DNA of 64,000 bases from Magnetococcales bacterium (GTDB lineage Bacteria; Pseudomonadota; Magnetococcia; Magnetococcales; DC0425bin3). The stretch covers positions 1 to 64,000 of the forward strand of contig JADGCO010000008.1 in the NCBI GenBank assembly GCA_015228935.1, given 5' to 3'. Below, piece by piece: positions 2,518-50,800 of this stretch; position 1 is the stretch's first letter; each line of letters opens with the position of its first letter. Under the pieces are notes generated by a model that saw only the letters and a program-made list of their open reading frames with translations, was not told where the DNA came from and made no database searches. Both the position numbers and the translations under genes were made by a program.

Positions 2518-3981
2518 TTACCGAAAAAGTTTCAAAAAGCCGTTGAACTTGATCTTGAACTCATACCAGGAACGAATTCCCAACACACTGCGCACAATGT
2601 AGCTCGGGCGCATATAAAACCGTCGATAGGCCTGGCGTTGGAGGACGATCTGGCGTTGCACCGGGATATGTTCTTCCCAATGATCGACATGAAAGCCCGG
2701 TTTGGGATCCAGAACCCAGCGTTGCCAGCGGTCTCCGTCCACCAGACCTTTCTGGCGGGCCTCCTCGAAGAGGGCGGTATTGGGATAAAGGCTGAGAACG
2801 GAAACCTGGAAATAATCGGGGTTCAGGCGGTGGGCCAGGGCAAGATTGTGGCGAATATCGGCCTCGGTCCGCTCGAAAGGCAAGCCAATCATGAAATCGG
2901 CCACGGTCTTGATGCCCAGCTCGTGGCACCAGCGAAAAACCTGTTGGATCTGGGCAACGTTGGTCCCTTTTTTCAGGGCTTCCAGACCGGCGTCCGTGGA
3001 GGTTTCGACCCCGAAGGAGATCATGCGACATCCAGCCCGCCGGGCACGTTCCAGGGATTCCCGGGTGACGGTATTGACCCGCCCCCGAAAATCCCAGTGA
3101 AATTTCAGGCCCCGCCGTTCCACTTCGTCGCAAAACTCGATCACCTTGCGGGGTGATACATTGAACAGGTCATCGTAGAGGTGAATCTCTTCGTAGCCCA
3201 TGCCCAGACACACTTCCACCTCGTCAATGACATTGGCCGTCGAGCGTCGGCGATAACGTTTGTAGGGCACGTCACAAAAGGTGCATTGATAGGGACACCC
3301 CCGGCTGCTGATCAGGGTGGCCAACCGGTCACTGACACCGAGAATGCTGTGATAATCGATGTGGCGGATGAAACGGCGATCCGGAAAAGGAAGGGTATCC
3401 AGGTCCTCGGTATATCCCGGCATCACGCCCAGACTTCCCAGAAAGCGTTTGTCGTGGAAAACCCGTTCGCGCCAGGGCTGGATGGACTCCCGGGTATAGA
3501 CCCCCTGGATGGTGGTGATCTCTTTTCCCTCCTCCAGAGCCTTGACCAACTGCGTGAAGGCAACCTCACCCTCTCCCACGACGATGGAGTCAAACTCCGG
3601 CAATTGGGCCGCCTCGAAGGGAAAGGCAATGGGGTGATGCCCACCCAGGCAAATATGGGCCTTAGGGACCACAGAACGCACGGTACGCGCTGCCTGGATC
3701 ACATCGAGCAGGGAGATGGTAAAGCTCGTGATGCCCACCACATCCGGCTGAATGGCCCGCACCACCTCTGGCAAGGTCGCCTGGGTGATGCGTTCCCCGA
3801 TACAATCCTTGAAAAACAGCTCGTGGCCAGTGGAGTGTTCTTGCAGATAGGTCAGAACATAAAGCGCCCCAAGGGGTGGGAATGCGCCAAAATCATCGGC
3901 TTCAAGATACCCTTCCCCGGTTTCGTCGGGATATTCGACCACGGTGTTTTCATCGGGGGGATTGAGAATCAGGATTTTCAT
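2518..3981 (-). CDS. B12-binding-domain radical SAM enzyme
   Basis: The protein (487 residues) starts MKILILNPP, typical of the cobalamin-binding radical SAM group. An N-terminal Rossmann-like B12 domain (about 1-160, containing VVGITSFTISLLD and VVGEGE) precedes a radical SAM barrel with the cluster motif CPYQCTFC (CxxxCxxC) near residue 230. The ISFGVETSTDAGLEALKKG segment is also characteristic of the family. Relatives methylate unactivated carbons or form rings in hopanoid, chlorophyll and lipid pathways. The downstream flippase-like partner favours a lipid or lipid-linked substrate, but that is inference. The classical DxHxxG cobalamin motif is not evident, which is common in this class. 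Its 5' end is duplicated at 4704-4852. Confidence 0.82.
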   Translation of the reverse strand: MKILILNPPDENTVVEYPDETGEGYLEADDFGAFPPLGALYVLTYLQEHSTGHELFFKDCIGERITQATLPEVVRAIQPDVVGITSFTISLLDVIQAARTVRSVVPKAHICLGGHHPIAFPFEAAQLPEFDSIVVGEGEVAFTQLVKALEEGKEITTIQGVYTRESIQPWRERVFHDKRFLGSLGVMPGYTEDLDTLPFPDRRFIRHIDYHSILGVSDRLATLISSRGCPYQCTFCDVPYKRYRRRSTANVIDEVEVCLGMGYEEIHLYDDLFNVSPRKVIEFCDEVERRGLKFHWDFRGRVNTVTRESLERARRAGCRMISFGVETSTDAGLEALKKGTNVAQIQQVFRWCHELGIKTVADFMIGLPFERTEADIRHNLALAHRLNPDYFQVSVLSLYPNTALFEEARQKGLVDGDRWQRWVLDPKPGFHVDHWEEHIPVQRQIVLQRQAYRRFYMRPSYIVRSVLGIRSWYEFKIKFNGFLKLFR

Positions 3982-4046
3982 GGGGATTGCCGTCCTGCCG
4001 GAGTTCAGATGGCGAACATCCTAACCCAAACCCGGTTCCCTGACCA
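3897..4046 (-). repeat. original of a 150-bp segment duplicated at 4704-4852
   Basis: The first ~85 bp of the radical-SAM coding region and ~65 bp upstream of it recur at 4704-4852 in the same orientation. The match is close across the start codon and upstream region (AGGATTTTCATGGGGATTG on the plus strand in both) and looser further into the coding part. The parDE module lies between the two copies. Confidence 0.9.
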
Positions 4047-4088
4047 GTTTCCTGTTTCTCATGGCTGTAGCCAAAAAAATTGGCGTTC

Positions 4089-4394
4089 TCAATGCTGGTA
4101 TTCTGTTTCAAACAAAACATCCATATTTCTTGCCCCATGTAAAATGCGAACAACCTGAACACCATCATGTGTTTCACGATAAAAAATAACGTAGTCTCCA
4201 ACTGGAAAATAACGCAATCCAGGCGCGATGTCTGAACGTGATCGACCGAGACGTGGATTATCTGCCAATAGAATACATTTACTTTCGAAAGTCATGACCA
4301 GACGATCAGCCGCTTCTGGATTATCTTCGGCAACATATTGCCAGATCGACAACAGGTCATTTTCCGAAGCTTTTGTGCGAGTCAGTTTTGCCAA
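4089..4394 (-). CDS. parE: RelE/ParE-family toxin
   Basis: A 101-residue protein of the RelE/ParE superfamily. The N-terminal KASENDLLSIWQYVAEDNPEAA matches ParE helix patterns, the middle has NPRLGRSRSDIAPGLRYFPVG, and the C-terminal strands read DYVIFYRE and VVRILHGARNMD, the usual ParE ending. ParE toxins poison DNA gyrase; chromosomal ones stabilise loci or respond to stress. The start is a TTG with AAGGA about 8 bases upstream, 8 bp beyond the antitoxin stop, so expression is coupled to parD. The module lies between two copies of the radical-SAM gene's 5' end, suggesting insertion by a duplication event. Function rests on family resemblance and partner. Confidence 0.85.
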   Translation of the reverse strand: MAKLTRTKASENDLLSIWQYVAEDNPEAADRLVMTFESKCILLADNPRLGRSRSDIAPGLRYFPVGDYVIFYRETHDGVQVVRILHGARNMDVLFETEYQH

Positions 4395-4402
4395 GATATT
4401 CC

Positions 4403-4681
4403 TTATTCCTGGTTGCGTTCAGCGGCAAACCGTCGCCGTGCTTCCTGCAAAAGGTCTTCCATGCCAACAAACTGACCCGGGCCGCTCTCGATACCCTCCT
4501 GCCATTGTCGGCGAATTTCTTCGAACTTCTGCTGACGAACAGACCTTTTATTCATCCACTCCTGCAAGGCTTCAAGAACAACTTCGTCGCTGGAAGCATA
4601 TTCGCCATCGGCGATGGATTGGCGCACGACAGATGCCATCTCCTGGTTCAGAACAATGCTGATTGTTTCAACAGTTGTCAC
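4403..4681 (-). CDS. parD: ParD-like antitoxin
   Basis: A 92-residue antitoxin with an N-terminal ribbon-helix-helix region (TISIVLNQEMASVVRQSI, then GEYASSDEVVLEALQEW at about 27-43), the standard ParD DNA-binding fold. A charged C-terminal helix (RRQWQEGIESGPGQF and following) would wrap the toxin. It precedes parE by 8 bp, the standard antitoxin-first order. ParD dimers normally repress their own promoter together with ParE, which would lie just above 4681. Length and motif order are typical of the family. Confidence 0.86.
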   Translation of the reverse strand: MTTVETISIVLNQEMASVVRQSIADGEYASSDEVVLEALQEWMNKRSVRQQKFEEIRRQWQEGIESGPGQFVGMEDLLQEARRRFAAERNQE

Positions 4682-4703
4682 GATTGCACCTGAGCATGGG
4701 CCT

Positions 4704-4852
4704 CGGCCTCAAGATATCACTCCCCGGTTTCGTCAGGATATCCGATCACGGTGTTTCCATCGGGGGAGGTTGAGAATCAGGATTTTCATGGGGATTGCCG
4801 TCCTGCCGGAGTTCAGATGGCGAACATCCTAACCCAAACCCTGTTCCCTGAC
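4704..4852 (-). pseudogene. duplicated, frameshifted 5' fragment of the radical-SAM gene
   Basis: This ~149-bp copy of 3897-4046 holds the upstream region and start of the radical-SAM gene. It begins MKILILN as in the parent, but small indels shift the frame and a stop follows within about 20 codons. It is non-coding debris, though it may still carry the promoter or ribosome site. It lies upstream of parD with the same polarity, so it could drive the TA module. Similarity is visible by eye; the order of events is inferred. Confidence 0.85.
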
Positions 4853-4904
4853 CATCCCCCGAGATCAACCCGAAAAAAGGATTATTCGTGCGCCTGAGTT
4901 AAAA

Positions 4905-5240
4905 TCAGGCTTGCTTTTCCTGCAAAAGATTGGCGACCATTTCTGGATGGCTCTGAATTACCTGCAACAGGATTCGGGCAGGTCCTTCCGGTTTGCGTCT
5001 TCCCTGTTCCCAGTTTCTCACCGTTGCCAAAGAAAATTTGAACCGTTCGGCAAATTCCTGTTGGGTCAGGTGCAATTTTTGTCTGATGATCTGCACATTG
5101 ATATCGACAACCGGAACCTTGGTAATACGAACCCGGCTTTCGTCCCCCTGGATATAGGACAAAACATCATCCAAACCAGAGAGAATCATTTTATCTTGCT
5201 CGGTAACAAAATTTTCAGGATTTTCAGATGACATAGACAT
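4905..5240 (-). CDS. XRE-family HTH protein, HigA/NadS-like antitoxin
   Basis: The 111-residue protein has a C-terminal Cro/C1-type helix-turn-helix (LHLTQQEFAERFKFSLATVRNWEQGRRKPEGPAR, residues ~56-90) after an acidic N-terminus containing GLDDVLSYIQGD. This layout is typical of HigA/NadS-type antitoxins, normally encoded just after a RelE-type toxin. No toxin ORF lies directly upstream; the preceding gene (5383-5802) does not resemble RelE. It is therefore either an orphan antitoxin or a stand-alone regulator. The ORF extends to an ATG at 5240 and a second ATG follows two codons later, so the start may be either. Confidence 0.72.
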   Translation of the reverse strand: MSMSSENPENFVTEQDKMILSGLDDVLSYIQGDESRVRITKVPVVDINVQIIRQKLHLTQQEFAERFKFSLATVRNWEQGRRKPEGPARILLQVIQSHPEMVANLLQEKQA

Positions 5241-5262
5241 GGCAGCCCCCTAAACTTAATAA

Positions 5263-6595: not shown

Positions 6596-8428
6596 CTACA
6601 TTCCTGGCAGGCGATCCGATACGAGGTGCCACAAACGCTCCTGGTCCTCATTCTGGATCACGGTAATCCGGCACCAGATTGAATACCAGGTCCCTTCATC
6701 CGTATGTTCGGTCACGGCGGCCACCACACCAATACAGGCCAGCCAATGCCAGGGATCCTCGGGAATGGCGAAGCGCAAACGCAACACGTCATCGACCTCG
6801 GGTGGTGGTGCCGGAACCATGAAATGAATCACCGGCCCTTCTCCGGGTCCCATCTGGACGACCACCGGCGTCATGACATAGCCCAGCAATGTGATCATAT
6901 CCTGCCGGATCACCCATTTGACCAGGGTATCCAGATTTTCTCCAAGATTTTGTATTTGTTTACGAAGATTTGACTTTTCCCTGCGCCGCTGCAAGGCCAG
7001 ACAGGATGTCATCTCCTTGCGGATGCAACGCATCTGCTGTTCCACATCCCGAACCTTGGCCTGACGCCTTGCGGCCAATATTTGTTGCAAAATTTTCAGA
7101 TAGCTCTGAAATACCTTGCCACAAGCGACCGTGGACTCCGCATCCTGGCCGACCAGGCTGACAACCAACACATCCAGACGGCGTATGACGGTCAGGAAAG
7201 GATCTTCCTCATCCGGGACGACGCCCCGGGCACTGACGGCATCCAGCAACAGACGCAAGGCGTTCATGAGTTGTGCCAGGCGCGCATGGGTCACACCCAA
7301 CGTCTTGACATTGGACATGAAGGCCTCCCGAGCCCGCAGCCGCGAAGGCAACTGCCGGGCATCCGGAAATCTGCCCTCCTGGGCCAGACTCTCCCGAATC
7401 CACTCCAGAAGACCGGGAGAAATATTCTCCCAATAAAACGGCAACACCACTTCCACAGAGAGATCTTCCGCCGTGAACGATGCCTCGGACGGCTCCTCTT
7501 CTCCCCAGGCTGGTGTTGCCGGCAATTGGATTGAATCCTCATCGGCTTTTCCAGAATCGTGCCACCCGGTACCATGCCATTCGGGATACTCTCTTTCCTG
7601 ACTGGCAATTGTCTCGTGCAACCGGGATTTTTGTTCCGGAAGAAGCTTGTTGGCCTGCATCATCCGTTGCACGACACCGGCTATTTTGCGGACCACCCGG
7701 GTGCCACCCCTTTTATTCCCGGAAAGTGACCCGGCGCGTGAGGCATGCTCTTTCTGTTCCGTATCCAGGATCACCTGGGTGTGGTCCTGGCTGATGGGGC
7801 GGGATGAACGGGTCAGATCCCCCCAGGAGATTCGTCTGGAATTTTGCGAACGGAGCCGGGCCTGTTGCGCCCGCGTGATGTAGGCGACCAGATCATCCTG
7901 ATCCTGGACCGCCATCAGGATGAATTCACAAATCACCTGCCGACGGTCCTGATGCGAATGCCCCTGTTGGTGCCGGTCTGCTCCGGTCACTGCCCGCACC
8001 CGCACCACCCGTGCCATGCAGACCAGTTCCGGCAGGTTGGCCCCCATGACCGTGAACTGCAAAGCCAGAATGCTCTCATTCTGCAATTCGGTCCGACGGA
8101 GCAAAAACGACAGCCCACCCCCGCTGACATCTCCCTGCACGTCATCCGCAGATTCATAAATCACCCGGACACGTTCCCGCCCGGCATGTCCCGGAAAGGC
8201 AATCGGGTCGGGGAGACTCCTCTCCAGATCAATTTCCTGTCGGAATGGCAACACACCGGTTTTGGCAAAAAACAGGCGCGCCGCCTGTTGGGCCTGGGAA
8301 TCCAGTTCCCGCCAACGCACGGAGAGCAGAGAGGAGAGGCGAAAAAAATTTCTTTGTTGGGTGACCATGGCACGGGAAATCATGACGGAGGCTCCAGAAC
8401 AGTCAAACTGCGAATCCATCCGGTTCAT
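6596..8428 (-). CDS. PilZ-domain c-di-GMP effector with a long central region
   Basis: The 610-residue protein has an N-terminal PilZ domain with both c-di-GMP elements: RNFFR (RxxxR, residues 26-30) and DVSGGG (DxSxxG, D100/S102/G105), then the strand MARVVRV. A low-complexity, charged middle (about 190-320) follows, then a helical segment (about 330-480) and a C-terminal beta-rich part (about 490-605, LGYVMTPVVVQMGPGEG and following) that could be a second, degenerate PilZ-like barrel. No membrane span is seen, so it is probably cytoplasmic. PilZ receptors control motility, exopolysaccharide or attachment; the output here is unknown. The start is ambiguous: ATG 8428, or ATG 8383 with GGAG 8 bases upstream, which would still keep the RxxxR motif. 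It is divergent from the cytochrome operon. Confidence 0.78.
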   Translation of the reverse strand: MNRMDSQFDCSGASVMISRAMVTQQRNFFRLSSLLSVRWRELDSQAQQAARLFFAKTGVLPFRQEIDLERSLPDPIAFPGHAGRERVRVIYESADDVQGDVSGGGLSFLLRRTELQNESILALQFTVMGANLPELVCMARVVRVRAVTGADRHQQGHSHQDRRQVICEFILMAVQDQDDLVAYITRAQQARLRSQNSRRISWGDLTRSSRPISQDHTQVILDTEQKEHASRAGSLSGNKRGGTRVVRKIAGVVQRMMQANKLLPEQKSRLHETIASQEREYPEWHGTGWHDSGKADEDSIQLPATPAWGEEEPSEASFTAEDLSVEVVLPFYWENISPGLLEWIRESLAQEGRFPDARQLPSRLRAREAFMSNVKTLGVTHARLAQLMNALRLLLDAVSARGVVPDEEDPFLTVIRRLDVLVVSLVGQDAESTVACGKVFQSYLKILQQILAARRQAKVRDVEQQMRCIRKEMTSCLALQRRREKSNLRKQIQNLGENLDTLVKWVIRQDMITLLGYVMTPVVVQMGPGEGPVIHFMVPAPPPEVDDVLRLRFAIPEDPWHWLACIGVVAAVTEHTDEGTWYSIWCRITVIQNEDQERLWHLVSDRLPGM

Positions 8429-11514: not shown

Positions 11515-11624
11515 GCCGGATACATTTTTCCCTGAACTCCGAACCTTCATTTCAGTTTTTCTGCGGCTGCTTTCCAAGAAGGGTATCTATTCAGATCCCT
11601 TGCAAAAAAAGGATTTGTCATGAA

Positions 11625-11718
11625 AGACTTTGTTGGGGCTCCGCCCCAAACCCCGCCAGGAGGAAGGGCACAGCCCTTCCTCCTGGACCTCCATCCCAGT
11701 TTTTCAAACGTTTTTTAA
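11625..11718. repeat. dispersed palindromic repeat, copy 1
   Basis: An intergenic element of ~94 bp with two nested palindromes: GGGGC-TCC-GCCCC and a 12-bp perfect stem AGGAGGAAGGGC / GCCCTTCCTCCT with a 3-base loop, ending CATCCCAGTTTTTC. A second copy lies at 35585-35678 and a degenerate core at 20797-20840. It resembles REP-type elements. It lies where a sensor kinase gene would be expected after the response regulator. Confidence 0.85.
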
Positions 11719-19523: not shown

Positions 19524-19682
19524 TTCAAATGGAGCGTGCCAAGGAAAGAACAATCCAGCCCGTTTGTTGGATGCAACGGGCGGATTCTACCAGATCCGGG
19601 GTACGGCTCAGAAAAATGCCACTTTGCACCCGGTTTCGTATTGATGGGATTGCCCTTTGCGTGTTCCCGGCAATGAGGTACG

Positions 19683-20672
19683 ATGCCAAGCATGATCGAC
19701 GACGATGATTCCATCTACCATCGCCTTTTTTCCCATCCGGAAATGGTGTCCGACCTGCTGCGGAATTTTCTGGAGCCTGACCTCCTGACGGAGCTTGACC
19801 TGTCGCACATGCGGCGGATGAACACCAAGTTTACGTCCCGGAGTGGTCAACGGCGGCGGGGAGACGTGGTATGGGAAATTCCCACCTGCGCTGGCAGCAG
19901 TGTGTTCTTGATCCTGATTTTAGAATTTCAGTCCGATATTGACGAGTGGATGGTGTTGCGTCTCGATGTCTATGTCGGATTGCTCTACCAGCAGTTGGTC
20001 GATGAGCGCAAATTGAAGCCTGCGGATGGTCTGCCGCCGGTACTTCCCATCGTTCTTTACAATGGCGAGAAACCGCGCTGGAATGCGGCCACGAGTTTGC
20101 GGGATCTGATCCGACTACCGGCAGGCTCACCGTTGTGGCAATATCAGCCCGAGATGCGGTACCATGTGATTGACGAAGGGAAATTTCCGGATCAGGATTT
20201 GAAGGGCCGTTGGTCCCTGACCGCCGTTTTTTTCCGAATACAGCATCCGGTCAGCCCTGCATCGGTCCTGGATGCCAGTCGCGACCTGGTTGTCTGGTTT
20301 GACAAACACCCAGATGGTCCACCCCTGAAGTATTTGTTCCGGGAACTGTTGGTTGTGGCCCTGGAACGGGTCAAGCAAAAAGATCCTGGCCCACCTGTTC
20401 CTGTGGAACTTGAGGAGGTTGTCATCATGCTGACAAATTATATCGATAAATGGGAAAAGGATATTGAACACCGAGTTCGTCAAGAAGTTCGTCAAGAAGA
20501 AGCGGCGGCCATCCTTGCCCGACAACTTCAGAGACGTTTTGGTCCACTACCACAAAATATTCTTGACGTGATGAAATCCGCTGACCTTGCATCTTTGGAG
20601 CAGTGGAGCGATATCATTATCGAAGCCAAATCGATTGATGATATTTTCGGTAGCGGTCACCATTTTGCATGA
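19683..20672 (+). CDS. Rpn-family PD-(D/E)XK nuclease / putative transposase
   Basis: A 329-residue member of the Rpn (recombination-promoting nuclease, formerly transposase_31) group. The N-terminal part reads HPEMVSDLLRNFLEPDLL; the nuclease core has RRGDVVWEI and LILILEFQSDIDEWM, giving the D...ExQ version of PD-(D/E)XK. The C-terminus has the coiled tail found with many Rpn proteins (ARQLQRRFGPLPQNILDVMKSAD), shared with DUF4351 proteins such as the one at 41856. Rpn enzymes nick or cut DNA and some act in phage defence. It stands alone after typA. A partial copy of its 5' end lies just downstream at about 20705-20790. Confidence 0.85.
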   Translation: MPSMIDDDDSIYHRLFSHPEMVSDLLRNFLEPDLLTELDLSHMRRMNTKFTSRSGQRRRGDVVWEIPTCAGSSVFLILILEFQSDIDEWMVLRLDVYVGLLYQQLVDERKLKPADGLPPVLPIVLYNGEKPRWNAATSLRDLIRLPAGSPLWQYQPEMRYHVIDEGKFPDQDLKGRWSLTAVFFRIQHPVSPASVLDASRDLVVWFDKHPDGPPLKYLFRELLVVALERVKQKDPGPPVPVELEEVVIMLTNYIDKWEKDIEHRVRQEVRQEEAAAILARQLQRRFGPLPQNILDVMKSADLASLEQWSDIIIEAKSIDDIFGSGHHFA

Positions 20673-20704
20673 TCTGATCGCCGACCGATCCGAATTGTTC
20701 TCTT

Positions 20705-20790
20705 GCATGTTTCCGGCAACAAGGTACGAGATGCCAAATATGATCGACGACGATGATTCCGTCTGCCATCGCATCTTTGGCCACGATCAT
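20705..20790 (+). pseudogene. duplicated 5' fragment of the Rpn gene
   Basis: About 85 bp repeat the region around the start of the Rpn gene at 19683 (the GTTTCCGGCAACAAGGTACGA stretch and the MPNMIDDDDSVCHRIF reading match GTTCCCGGCAATGAGGTACGA and MPSMIDDDDSIYHRLF). After about 16 codons similarity ends and the sequence runs into a degenerate copy of the dispersed repeat. No nuclease domain remains. It is the relic of a second Rpn gene or of a misrepaired duplication. Confidence 0.85.
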
Positions 20791-35536: not shown

Positions 35537-35584
35537 CCGGGATTTGCGCCAAAGCCACCAACAAGAATTTTTTTAAAATTGGAA

Positions 35585-35678
35585 AGAAAGATTTTATTGG
35601 GGCTCCGCCCCAAACCCCGCCAAGAGGAAGGGCAGAGCCGCTTCCTCCTGGACCATCCCAGTTTTTCATTCGTTTTTC
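35585..35678. repeat. dispersed palindromic repeat, copy 2
   Basis: Shares TTGGGGCTCCGCCCCAAACC and the following CCGCC...GAGGAAGGGC...CTTCCTCCTGGACC...CATCCCAGTTTTTC with the element at 11625-11718. Its central palindrome has small changes that weaken the stem. It lies between two convergent genes. Confidence 0.85.
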
Positions 35679-47819: not shown

Positions 47820-50800
47820 TCAGATGATTTGAATCTTGTTTTGGGAAAGAATTTCCTGCATGACCACCAGGCCAAACCGGGCGGTATCGGAGTGGATGGT
47901 CAACATGACATCACTGCCGGAAACCCGCACCACGCGGCAGGAAAAGCCTGCATCCCTGGTCAAACGCACAAAGCGAAAAGTCCCCTGCATGCCCTCTCTC
48001 AGACCATCTCCGGCCCGTTCCAGTTTCATGCGGACGCCAACGACGCTGACATCTTCTGTAACACCCCGATGGGCAACCCCATCCGGCATTACAATTTCGA
48101 CTTTGGTTTTCAAGACAGACCTTTCCACCTCCCGACGGGATCCGACTTCCTCTGTCTGACTCCGGAAAGGAGATTGTGGTGGTCCAGGTCTTGTGGAAAG
48201 CCTGGATGCCAAGCGACCCGGATTGGTCACGGGACTTTTTTGACCCCGAATGGCAATCGCCCAGTCACCCTTGGAACTCTTTTGGATCTCCTCCTGGGCT
48301 GGGAACAAATCGCGAATATCTTCTTTTGCGTAGATCGGCGTTTCCTGCTGGATCGCCGGACCAGCCAGGTGATCCAACTCCACAAATTGTTCCTGACGGG
48401 CCGGAGAAAAAGCCGGCTGTTCCTGACGGGACGGAATAACAGCCGTCTGTTCCTGACGAGCCGGAAAAACGGCCGGCTGTTCCTGACGGGCCGAAAAAAC
48501 GGCCGGCTGTTCCTGACGGGCCGGAAAAACAGCCGGCTGTTCCTGACGGGTTGCAAGTGCAAACAGTTGATCCTGCCGGGTTGGTATGGAGGTCTGTTGT
48601 TCCTGCCAGATCGGAATAGCGGAAGTTTGCTCCTGCCGGGTTGGCAGAGGAGCCTGGTGTTCCTCCTGCCAGGTTGGCGTGGTGGTGGCCTGCTGTGATT
48701 CCTGCCGGGTCGGATCTGCGGTTGACTCCGTTACAGGTTCAAAGTACGCCGCGTTTCCCTTTGATGACAGATCATGATGACGCGCCAGTGGTTGACTCAT
48801 GACCTCTTTGGCACTCAACAATTGCTCATGCAATTGTTTGGAGCGATTGCGCAACTGAGTCAGTTTGGAAATAACTTCTTCACCCTGTTCGACCACATCC
48901 TGTTGATGGTGTTCCTGGGAAGCTTCCAGAATTTTTTGAATTTCCTCTGTAACCTGTTGGTAGACCTTGTCACCGCCCAACAGCTTCCAACCCTGATAAT
49001 CCATCTCGCCACTGACCAGGCCCATCTTGATGTTGGTCAGCAATCGACTGATATCGGAGCAGGTATCCTCGATTTCCTTGATAAACTGAACTTTTTGTTG
49101 ATACAGGGAATCAACTTCACTGATCCGTTCTATGGCATCCTCGATTTGCAATTCAATCGTCTTGAATTGTTCCAGCAAAGAAAAATTGTGCGGGCTTTCA
49201 TAATACAACAGGTTGCCCAATCCAATCCCTTTATTGTAAAGCAACATTTCATCGGCAACGTCGCTGGCATTCTTTCCAAGCCCGCGAATCATTCTTGCTT
49301 CTTCTTCGATACCCTGGAGAATATTATCATAATGAAGTATCGATAACTTCCATGTTTTGGCCCAATCCGTAGAGAATCCATCAAGCTTGTCAAATATTTC
49401 CTTTATTTTATTGATTTTTAATTTTGGGATTCTTTTCAAAATATCTTCAATATCAATTATTTTGTTTTTTTCCACAGAGGTTATTTTTACTCTTTCAAGG
49501 CGTCCTCTATTGGATACGCAAAAATTGTAAAGCCATCTTTTCCGTGACCATGGATAATCAATTTTTTCATTAATAAATGAAACCGTGAAAATCCAATATT
49601 TTGCCTGCCAAATCGGGCAATAAACATAATAGATCAAAAAGAATGCAATTTTTTTGTACAAGGTAACCCAGTAAACCGGATCTTCATCATGAGCAGAACA
49701 CCCTTCGCGCATGGAGACCATGACACAGCGCCAGATTTGCAGCATACCTTTTGGGGCACAGCGGGTACAGGTTGCAGAATTTTTCGTGATCTTGCCGGTT
49801 GCAGGGGAACGGTTGCCAGTTCCAGCTTCCTGGCGTTGCCGTCTGGCTTGCGGATCCAGTTCCTTGTAGGCCTTGTCGAGGGTCAACTCAAAATCGCGTT
49901 GCATTTTGGATTTTGTTTCTTCGCGGAGCGTTCCTCCCCGGACGATGGATTTGCACAGGGGCACACCACTGGTTTGTTTCAGGCTCAGCTCGAATTTTTC
50001 CTGTCCCTGCTGCATGCCTGCCGAGATTTTGGCACCCAATTGCACGAACAGCATTTTTTCCAGCTTTCCGTCCCATTGCAGACCTGGGTACAAGACTCCC
50101 AGGAACCGGCATTCATTTCGGTTCAAGGCTTTCTGGACACGATCCAGGGCACGATCCCAGGCTTGCAGGCCATAGCAGATTTCCTTGCGCACCGTGGCCC
50201 TGAAGAGACGGACCAGCCAGATTCTCCATCTGAGCCAGGGAGTGACATGGCCTCCGGTATATTTCAACTCCCCATCCATATCGAACAGCCACATGACGAG
50301 GGCATCCCGCATCAGGATTTCGGAGGGGCGTGGCAGCCAGCTCAGGAGGGAAAACCATACCTCTTTTTTTTCAAAAAAAGTCCTGACTTTACTCACGAAT
50401 TCGTCATTCCACATCGTGATGGCCGTGCTTTTATGGTCCAGAATTTTTTCATCTTTTTTGGCAATTTTAACCGTGAAACGAGTGAACAGCAGGAGTTCAC
50501 CGAGATCAAGCGAAATGGAAAAGAGCAGGATGGCCATCAGAAGAAATCTGGCCATGGTTGCGCCATATTCATCGATGAGAAACCGGTTCAGGGCGGCGAG
50601 GTCTTTATGGATGGCAGCCGGAATGACCCCTTTTTTCAACGCATCGATTCCCTCGATATCCGGGGCATCGACAGCGGCTGAAATATGATACTCGACCTGT
50701 TGTGTACTGCCGTACTTATCGACTTGGCGCAAAACGGAAACATGCAATTTCAGAAGTTTGTTGAGTTCGGTAGCCACTTCATCATAGACACGCTTATTGT

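Follow-up and report, generated by a model that had tools for sequence, protein, structure and literature searches.

Insertion with long target duplication is said to have been described for restriction-modification (R-M) systems by Nobusato in 2000 and by Furuta in 2010. In passages of these and other papers, R-M units lie between direct copies of the target, which are variable in length and on the order of 100 bp, and are unlinked to any known mobile element (PMC3874152, PMC1643837 and others); a CGAT passage calls long target duplication "frequently associated" with R-M genes. For toxin-antitoxin (TA) modules, the only case that we found in the literature passages compared is an uninterpreted one in Microcystis aeruginosa PCC 7806, in which two direct repeats of 152 bp enclose a ParE/ParD-like pair next to MaOC1, an orthocaspase gene (PMC7935541); the comparison does not extend to the primary literature on ccdO157 or on TA transfer in E. 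coli. The locus described here is a parDE operon of a Magnetococcales bacterium, which stands between two direct copies of the start of a radical-SAM gene.

The parDE locus and its duplicated gene start

The window (the whole 64,000-nucleotide stretch of DNA analysed) contains an intact B12-binding radical-SAM gene (2518-3981, minus strand, as are all features below; 487 aa), and it turned out that the 5' end of this gene is present twice. Copy 1 (3896-4046) comprises 65 bp of upstream region, the start codon and the first 28 codons of the intact gene, while copy 2 (4703-4854), the fossil, is on the upstream side of parDE and differs from copy 1 by 10 substitutions and one 1-bp insertion. As direct repeats they align over 152 columns with 92.8% identity, which bears out the first-pass annotation, where a repeat of about 150 bp covering the gene start and its upstream region had been reported on both sides of parDE; the limits proposed there for the structure, 3897-4852, are correct within 2 bp. 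The same annotation ascribed the loss of the reading frame to small indels. The frame is indeed lost, since the open part of the fossil (4733-4789) reaches a stop after 18 codons, but the single 1-bp indel stands in place of the several that had been supposed.

The local alignment of the two copies scores 247, against a best of 26 in 200 shuffles, and a search of the whole genome with copy 2 found the segment nowhere else, the best match outside the two copies being 20 bp long (E 0.11). A chance repeat is ruled out by these results, and the count of two copies genome-wide also rules out a dispersed repeat family. The differences between the copies are uneven, with 1 in the 65 upstream columns versus 10 in the 87 coding columns (p 0.025), which is not predicted by a single neutral duplication and therefore counts against the explanation that we favour below. 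Copy 2 agrees with the congener G002 at some bases where copy 1 differs, and each copy has private changes.

The segment between the copies (4047-4702, 656 bp) is a predicted type II TA pair, ParDE, with a further 42 and 21 bp on its two sides. The putative antitoxin gene parD (4403-4681, 92 aa, GTG start) is upstream and the putative toxin gene parE (4089-4394, 101 aa, TTG start) follows 8 bp downstream, in the arrangement known for ParDE. Both Pfam matches are above the cut-off, PF05016 with E 1.5e-20 for parE and PF03693 with E 8e-5 for parD, the latter barely, and the TIGR02606 score of parD is under the family cut-off. Apart from parDE, 4047-4702 contains no ORF of a recognisable family and no integrase, transposase or tRNA. 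Terminal inverted repeats of the 656-bp segment are not clear (score 6, in a range of 5-10 over 15 cases that has no null). No donor copy of this parDE was found, and a search of plasmid DNA with window positions 3800-5260 gave one weak match, inside parE.

A promoter-like element, TGGTCA-N17-TAGGAT, can be read in copy 1 (4018-4046) and again in copy 2 (4826-4854), where its first hexamer is the start of the copy and it points towards parDE, a position in which it may function as a promoter. Both hexamers and the N17 spacing are also present upstream of the radical-SAM ortholog in G002; a consensus promoter scanner makes no call for the element of copy 1. It had been claimed that parDE now separates the intact gene from its usual upstream region. 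The operon does lie between the copies, but the upstream region is not lost, as copy 1 keeps 65 bp of it with the promoter-like element.

In G002, the PilZ gene is followed directly by the radical-SAM gene, with one 5' end and no parDE, and thus the empty site that the first-pass annotation suggested looking for in relatives exists. This evidence comes from one relative with about 80% DNA identity, whose junction has other differences too. Three genes (HTH, 139 aa and 162 aa) stand between the PilZ gene and copy 2 in the window and none of them at the G002 junction; the HTH gene, MqsA/NadS-like, is located at 4905-5240. The history of the site is therefore not one clean event.

Direct repeats recur around other toxin-antitoxin operons

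We searched for direct repeats around 81 ParE loci of the same order. They bracket 14 of these loci versus 213 of 9,067 positions (2.3%) in the same loci (binomial p 6e-9), a background whose repeats are unmatched to accessory, TA-sized cassettes; without the window and G002:C99, 12 of 79 loci are bracketed (p 3e-7). The set consists of 80 of at least 150 listed places, mostly top-ranked and including all those listed for G000-G003, plus G002:C99, which was added when already known to be bracketed; the bracketed locus G033:C18 (L072) is not in it. Besides the window, five of the 14 had already been seen before the survey count. It had also been proposed to look for duplicated gene starts on both sides of the other parDE loci of the genome. 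This does not hold within the window's own genome (G000), in which only the window is bracketed among 10 loci surveyed, of 17 PF05016 matches listed, and the 40-bp pair at an eleventh locus (contig C81) belongs to a type recurring elsewhere in the genome; it does hold in sister genomes.

According to our own sorting, 9 of the 14 bracketed ParE loci have locus-specific repeats, which vary from case to case in sequence and in length (47-152 bp); their uniqueness was checked against 299 locus records, and that of the window's repeat against the whole genome. In seven of these nine, the interval (574, 605, 651, 656, 718, 738 or 776 bp) corresponds in length to a TA operon on its own. The repeats span ends of neighbouring genes, such as the ycjX 3' end with the ycjF start, the dctM 3' end, and the 5' ends of Fur, SHMT, phage portal and AAA ATPase genes, those within repeats that lack a Pfam call being named by eye. 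The weakest of the nine are L135 and L193, with repeats of 52 and 47 bp at 1.4-1.5 kb from each other, and at L135 one of the copies is within a gene. For L196 and for L280, the repeat matched a single further locus in the comparison set. For the Fur case in G033, the polarity is ambiguous, as this TA and its left neighbour stand together in G021, where no Fur gene is present; in G046, the repeats are at a junction of genes that stand apart in relatives, so that a rearrangement or misassembly is possible.

The other bracketed ParE loci were set aside, namely L134, with a dispersed repeat, L170 and L172, whose repeat we take to be RAYT-type, L169, with a tRNA-Arg in the repeat and an integrase-like fragment nearby, and L150, with 40 bp around a 2.7-kb interval. 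For VapC, 6 of 30 loci are bracketed versus none of 50 control loci (SmpB 0 of 30, radical-SAM genes 0 of 20), in counts made without the multiplicity filter of the ParE survey and with contig-end loci (4 of 30 VapC, 2 of 30 SmpB) tested loosely. Among these six, L211, L226 and L230 were set aside as dispersed or RAYT-type, and L216 was left out as wide (2.2 kb). L225, outside both sets, has a tRNA-Gln in its repeat, L125 is a VapC remnant and L272 resembles a transposase copy; all three were set aside. Examples of a TA between repeats exist for HigBA and VapC-type modules as well.

In another order, that of G059, a bracketing pair was found at 3 of 30 ParE loci, and L280 alone is a clear gene-start duplication; L294, with a 60-bp repeat that is presumably dispersed, and L296, with a 536-bp repeat, were set aside. 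A total of 1.2 Mb not centred on TAs contains 7 repeat pairs, of which 4 are paralogous genes or domains by eye and none was recognised as a TA. None of 10 TA modules of E. coli K-12 is bracketed within 1.5-kb flanks. Among named ParE relatives, 1 of 7 in plasmids is bracketed, and 0 of 6 in genome contigs within 3 kb, two of the left flanks there being just 1.1 and 0.8 kb; L204 of the contigs has repeats about 7 kb apart. In a complete plasmid of Nostoc NIES-3756, parDE lies between 142-bp copies of the 3' end of a DUF488 gene, 651 bp apart, and two plasmids of the related strain UHCC 0870 lack parDE and carry this segment in a single copy. Beyond the outer repeat, the NIES-3756 site has no match in Trichormus or UHCC 0870 plasmids; as the match is on the gene side only, these sites have a single copy but do not count as two-sided empty sites.

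Explanations of the repeats

The likely explanation, in our view, is an insertion of parDE as a bare operon of about 650 bp at the 5' end of the radical-SAM gene, with about 150 bp of the target duplicated on entry. The first-pass annotation had left the choice between a module that duplicated its insertion site on arrival and one captured by a tandem duplication; the former is favoured by the G002 site, by the recurrence of the structure, in which both the repeats and the TA family vary, and by the Nostoc case. If the 5' end of the gene had first been duplicated in tandem, and parDE had entered between the copies later, the final structure would be identical, and this course of events is consistent with the private changes in both copies and with the G002 bases of copy 2. 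It is nevertheless unlikely, since two events would be needed at many loci, with the TA between the copies each time, and small duplications free of a TA are at least rare in the 1.2 Mb (7 pairs, 4 of which look paralogous). A little less probable again is a Campbell-type single crossover, in which a circle that carried parDE along with DNA homologous to the target integrated by recombination, leaving a repeat on each side. Such a foreign copy could account for the uneven divergence, and passages of PMC2869330 propose for transposed Arabidopsis genes that circles inserted and left genic repeats at their flanks, but a TA circle must already hold the right target piece for each site and none was found in the search of plasmid DNA.

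It is very improbable that the repeats are attL and attR of a site-specific integrative element of which only the TA module survived decay. Repeats of this kind are seen at two other loci, L169 with tRNA-Arg and L225 with tRNA-Gln, whereas only parDE stands between the window copies, with no tRNA or integrase, and the locus-specific repeats differ between cases in sequence as well as in length, from 47 to 152 bp. Survivorship, which is compatible with the favoured explanation, has close to an even chance: insertions with long duplications would hit all DNA, and those carrying an addiction module persist, while others are lost by recombination between the repeats. The enrichment at TA loci fits this, as does the description of TA modules as opposing deletion of dispensable regions in passages of PMC2654758, although survivorship and TA-specific insertion give the same pattern in these data.

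If parDE entered with duplication of its target, the insertion would be harmless, because the radical-SAM gene retains the promoter-like region and start in copy 1, and the promoter-like region of copy 2, which faces parDE, may drive or modulate it. A general promoter capture is unsupported, as other cases duplicate gene 3' ends, the scanner calls no promoter, and GGTTAGGATG showed no enrichment in the window. The joining was probably either replicative, with a fork that departs from the target, uses donor DNA as template for the TA operon and returns to the target 50-150 bp upstream, or a fill-in of a widely staggered break. Recombination between the repeats would remove parDE, and as selection acts against the loss of an addiction module, this would explain why the repeats persist.

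More tentatively, and with chances somewhat short of even, bare type II TA operons may be minimal mobile units that enter both chromosomes and plasmids with no element of their own, and whose 50-150 bp target duplication leaves gene boundaries undamaged while addiction locks the repeats. If true, this would explain how chromosomal TA modules integrate and give one shared route for R-M and TA addiction modules. The recurrent gene-preserving scar would be a footprint searchable in any genome, the divergence of the repeats would date each acquisition, and a testable prediction is that the toxin shields its own flanking repeats from recombination. The scars, seen in relatives and in some unrelated bacteria, hint at how bare TA pairs enter genomes without breaking neighbour genes.

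Comparison with described systems

The window differs from IS elements and unit transposons in having no transposase, no clear terminal inverted repeat, and a duplication of 152 bp rather than a short one. As with attL and attR of integrative elements, direct repeats from a gene end flank the insert, but the segment lacks the integrase found within such elements, and there is no shared core, no common target and no constant repeat length. Transposed Arabidopsis genes are likewise single genes between direct repeats, to which the target site in a relative is homologous, whereas that case is eukaryotic, with a circle excision model and cargo other than addiction modules, according to passages of PMC2869330. 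The MaOC1 repeats are identical and contain an inverted repeat, unlike the window copies, and the passages of PMC7935541 give no target-duplication reading or empty-site test for them.

As in the long target duplication of R-M systems, which in the passages cited are also addiction modules, the insert stands between direct copies of the target; in the window, G002 provides a single-copy relative without the insert, and no known mobile element is present. The cargo differs, since R-M genes are typical of that class, though not stated as exclusive, and the window carries a ParDE pair. In general, the inserts in our cases are bare type II TA operons (ParDE, YefM/Phd-ParE, VapC-type, HigBA), mostly of about 0.6-1.1 kb, and, unlike in the R-M case, the repeats often hold the start or the end of a gene or a promoter-like region.

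Repeat anatomy of the window locus and its counterpart in relatives

On the minus strand of the window (genome G000, contig C8), the PilZ gene (6596-8428) is followed by a 162-aa ORF, a 139-aa ORF, an MqsA/NadS-like HTH gene (4905-5240), copy 2 of the repeat (4703-4854), parD (4403-4681), parE (4089-4394) and copy 1 (3896-4046), inside which the intact B12-radical-SAM gene (2518-3981) starts. The first-pass annotation had placed parDE between two copies of the radical-SAM gene 5' end, and this was confirmed: an alignment of the two spans 152 columns at 92.8% identity, with a single 1-bp indel (score 247; best of 200 shuffles 26), and copy 2, searched against the whole genome of the window (G000), matched only the places of copy 1 and copy 2. 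The radical-SAM gene has a full paralog, 79% identical, at G000:C6:78173-79633 (L022), where the repeat has no match; a glycosyltransferase-like gene (by eye) comes next there.

Both copies open with TGGTCA-N17-TAGGAT, and 65 bp precede the ATG, followed by about 28 codons of the radical-SAM gene; in copy 2 the frame runs for 18 codons before a stop. The ortholog in the congener G002 has TGGTCA and TAGGAT at equal spacing upstream, while the remaining leader aligns poorly. Because the consensus scanner called no promoter at TGGTCA-N17-TAGGAT, the putative promoter is proposed from this conservation. Differences between the copies are unevenly spread: 1 falls in the 65 columns before the ATG and 10 in the 87 after it (Fisher p 0.025), and 72 consecutive columns show none (permutation p 0.007). 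Both tests were picked post hoc. Selection acting on the putative promoter, or else partial gene conversion, could explain the pattern. Neither copy has stayed unchanged, since at some synonymous sites copy 2 agrees with G002 against copy 1.

In G002 the radical-SAM gene (86% protein identity) lies directly after a PilZ-family homolog. The empty site sought in relatives was found there in part: G002 has a single radical-SAM 5' end and no parDE, but the HTH, 139-aa and 162-aa genes are absent too, so the junction was altered more than once and parDE is one among several differences. The radical-SAM ortholog of G003 has a different upstream region, and a search for the parDE region with its repeats in genomes G001 and G003 gave no match at E 1e-3.

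Other repeats were also seen in the window. A pair at 19657-20778 (76 columns, 84%) consists of the beginning of a 329-aa gene, judged Rpn-like by eye, and a second copy of it 1 kb further downstream; it resembles what is left of a tandem gene copy. Tandem repeats of 78 bp (654-1043) lie within a 334-aa ORF (312-1316), and those of 30 bp (48358-48657) give eight overlapping 90-nt copies in register. One repeat (GGGGCTCCGCCCCAAACCCCGCC...) occurs at 11615-11675 and 35579-35639 with 89% identity and looks like a dispersed intergenic repeat.

Recurrence of bracketing repeats at toxin-antitoxin loci

In a first set of ParE relatives, bracketing repeats were present in 7 of 30 loci, window included. 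The survey was then extended to 81 ParE loci from the same order (80 among at least 150 places listed, plus one already known to be bracketed), counting direct repeats that were 40 bp or longer, at least 75% identical and 200-3000 bp apart. It turned out that ParE was bracketed in 14 of 81 loci, compared with 213 of 9067 other positions of the same loci (2.3%; binomial p 6e-9). The count was 12 of 69 when each flank had to exceed 600 bp, and 12 of 79 (p 3e-7) once the window and the locus known beforehand were dropped.

Nine of the 14 (window, L132, L135, L146, L153, L164, L180, L193 and L202) have repeats that we sorted as locus-specific against the sequence fetched for this study, with intervals of 574-776 bp in seven. 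The others were set aside for dispersed or RAYT-type repeats (L134, L170, L172), a tRNA-Arg in the repeat (L169), or a 40-bp repeat with a wide interval (L150). L169 (5548-6851), where a RelB/ParE-like pair lies between the repeats that include the tRNA-Arg gene and an integrase-like fragment is close by, is likely a decayed integrative element. The repeats (GGGGACAGTATATCCATTTC) of L170, L172 and L226, which we take to be RAYT-type, adjoin toxin-antitoxin (TA) modules. Besides, the single-contig genome G013 (C1) has four ParE matches with identical scores.

VapC-type loci were bracketed in 6 of 30, three of which were rejected for dispersed or RAYT-type repeats; L234 and L235 have locus-specific repeats with intervals below 1.1 kb, and that of L216 is wider. 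ParE loci of a different order had a bracketing pair in 3 of 30, including a clear copy of the serine hydroxymethyltransferase (SHMT) gene start in L280. No bracketing was found at SmpB (0 of 30) or radical-SAM gene (0 of 20) control loci; core genes are an easy control, and the within-locus positions used above give a fairer comparison. A scan for repeat-X-repeat arrangements of any kind in the fetched loci (1.24 Mb) also gave, away from the central gene of each locus, a HigBA pair in L196 (HigB PF05015, E 2e-17) and, in L190 (3678-4197), a lone 75-aa ORF, antitoxin-like by eye and with no Pfam match, between copies of an AAA ATPase 5' end. In 60 hand-picked 20-kb stretches not centred on TA genes (1.2 Mb), there were 7 repeat pairs, whose intervals span 0.3-0.6% of the sequence; by eye, four of them consist of paralogous genes or domains, and no TA was recognised from the ORFs alone.

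Sequences covered by the repeats

The repeat sequences differ among loci and are located at the ends of neighbouring genes: the ycjX 3' end plus ycjF start (L146), the dctM 3' end (L164), the region upstream of a histidine-kinase gene (L132), and the 5' ends of Fur (L072), SHMT (L280), phage portal (L234) and AAA ATPase (L190) genes. No clear terminal inverted repeats were found in 15 cases (raw scores 5-10, without a null). For L146, ycjX and ycjF are adjacent in genome G046. For L132, the antitoxin and inserted segment were not found in the 4.5-kb loci of kinase-gene matches in G000 and G001; in G000, a similar TAGGAT element and a further gene lie upstream of the start of the kinase match.

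Two loci are ambiguous. At L072, the related genome G021 carries the same TA by the same left gene but without Fur, which leaves the direction of change ambiguous. In L164 (5820-6607, G046), parDE is at the junction of genes far apart in relatives: dctM and ycjF are separated by about 80 kb in G022, and nine further genomes of the genus have them on different contigs. This TA therefore sits at a rearrangement, unless the contig was misassembled. Of five relatives aligned, three have a recognisable counterpart of the dctM end that lies in the repeat.

The best plasmid match of the window ParE (58%) is on Nostoc sp. NIES-3756 plasmid pNOS3756_1, the only bracketed case among 7 plasmid loci examined. 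On this complete plasmid, a DUF488 gene 3' end is present in two 142-bp copies (85%), 651 bp apart, which enclose parDE; parE reaches up to the second copy and terminates at its edge. Both repeats also occur on plasmid A of Trichormus variabilis ATCC 29413, where the parE they enclose is shortened and accompanied by two additional genes. In two plasmids of Nostoc sp. UHCC 0870, the stretch read contains a single DUF488 gene end and lacks parDE. None of the Trichormus and UHCC 0870 plasmids compared shares the flank outside the outer repeat of pNOS3756_1, and the comparison is therefore one-sided. None of 10 TA modules of E. coli K-12 was bracketed by repeats, and none of 6 contigs from named genomes that carry ParE relatives had such repeats nearby.

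Proposed mechanism and known systems

The repeat-TA-repeat structure recurs, and relatives exist with one copy and without the module. The first origin offered by the first-pass annotation, arrival with a duplication at the insertion site, is supported and generalises to other TA loci. On the favoured reading, a bare TA operon was inserted with a long duplication of the target, and neither neighbour was disrupted; replicative template switching or staggered-break fill-in may have joined the ends, and copy 2 could serve as a promoter. Recombination between the repeats would delete an addiction module, and addiction may thus account for retention afterwards.

Nobusato 2000 and Furuta 2010 are reportedly the primary papers on long target duplication at restriction-modification (R-M) systems. 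Target duplications there are described as long and variable, of the order of 100 bp (review, PMC3874152; CGAT, PMC1643837), and Nobusato is cited in an R-M sentence of PMC2654758. A Microcystis ParDE-like module has 152-bp direct repeats, and the passages describing it give no target-duplication reading (PMC7935541); among the open-access titles and abstracts listed, only this paper came up for long target duplication at TA modules. The term "direct repeat" is absent from the main texts of PMC2701414, PMC5481352 and PMC7167474. A passage of the last calls the TA integration route unelucidated, and another reports that some strains keep the relA-mazG and dinB-yafP operons undisturbed; strains without ccdAB are described with a 77-bp folA-apaH gap (PMC7232551). 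In conclusion, insertion with long target duplication is known for R-M systems, and the window would represent a variant with a TA cargo.
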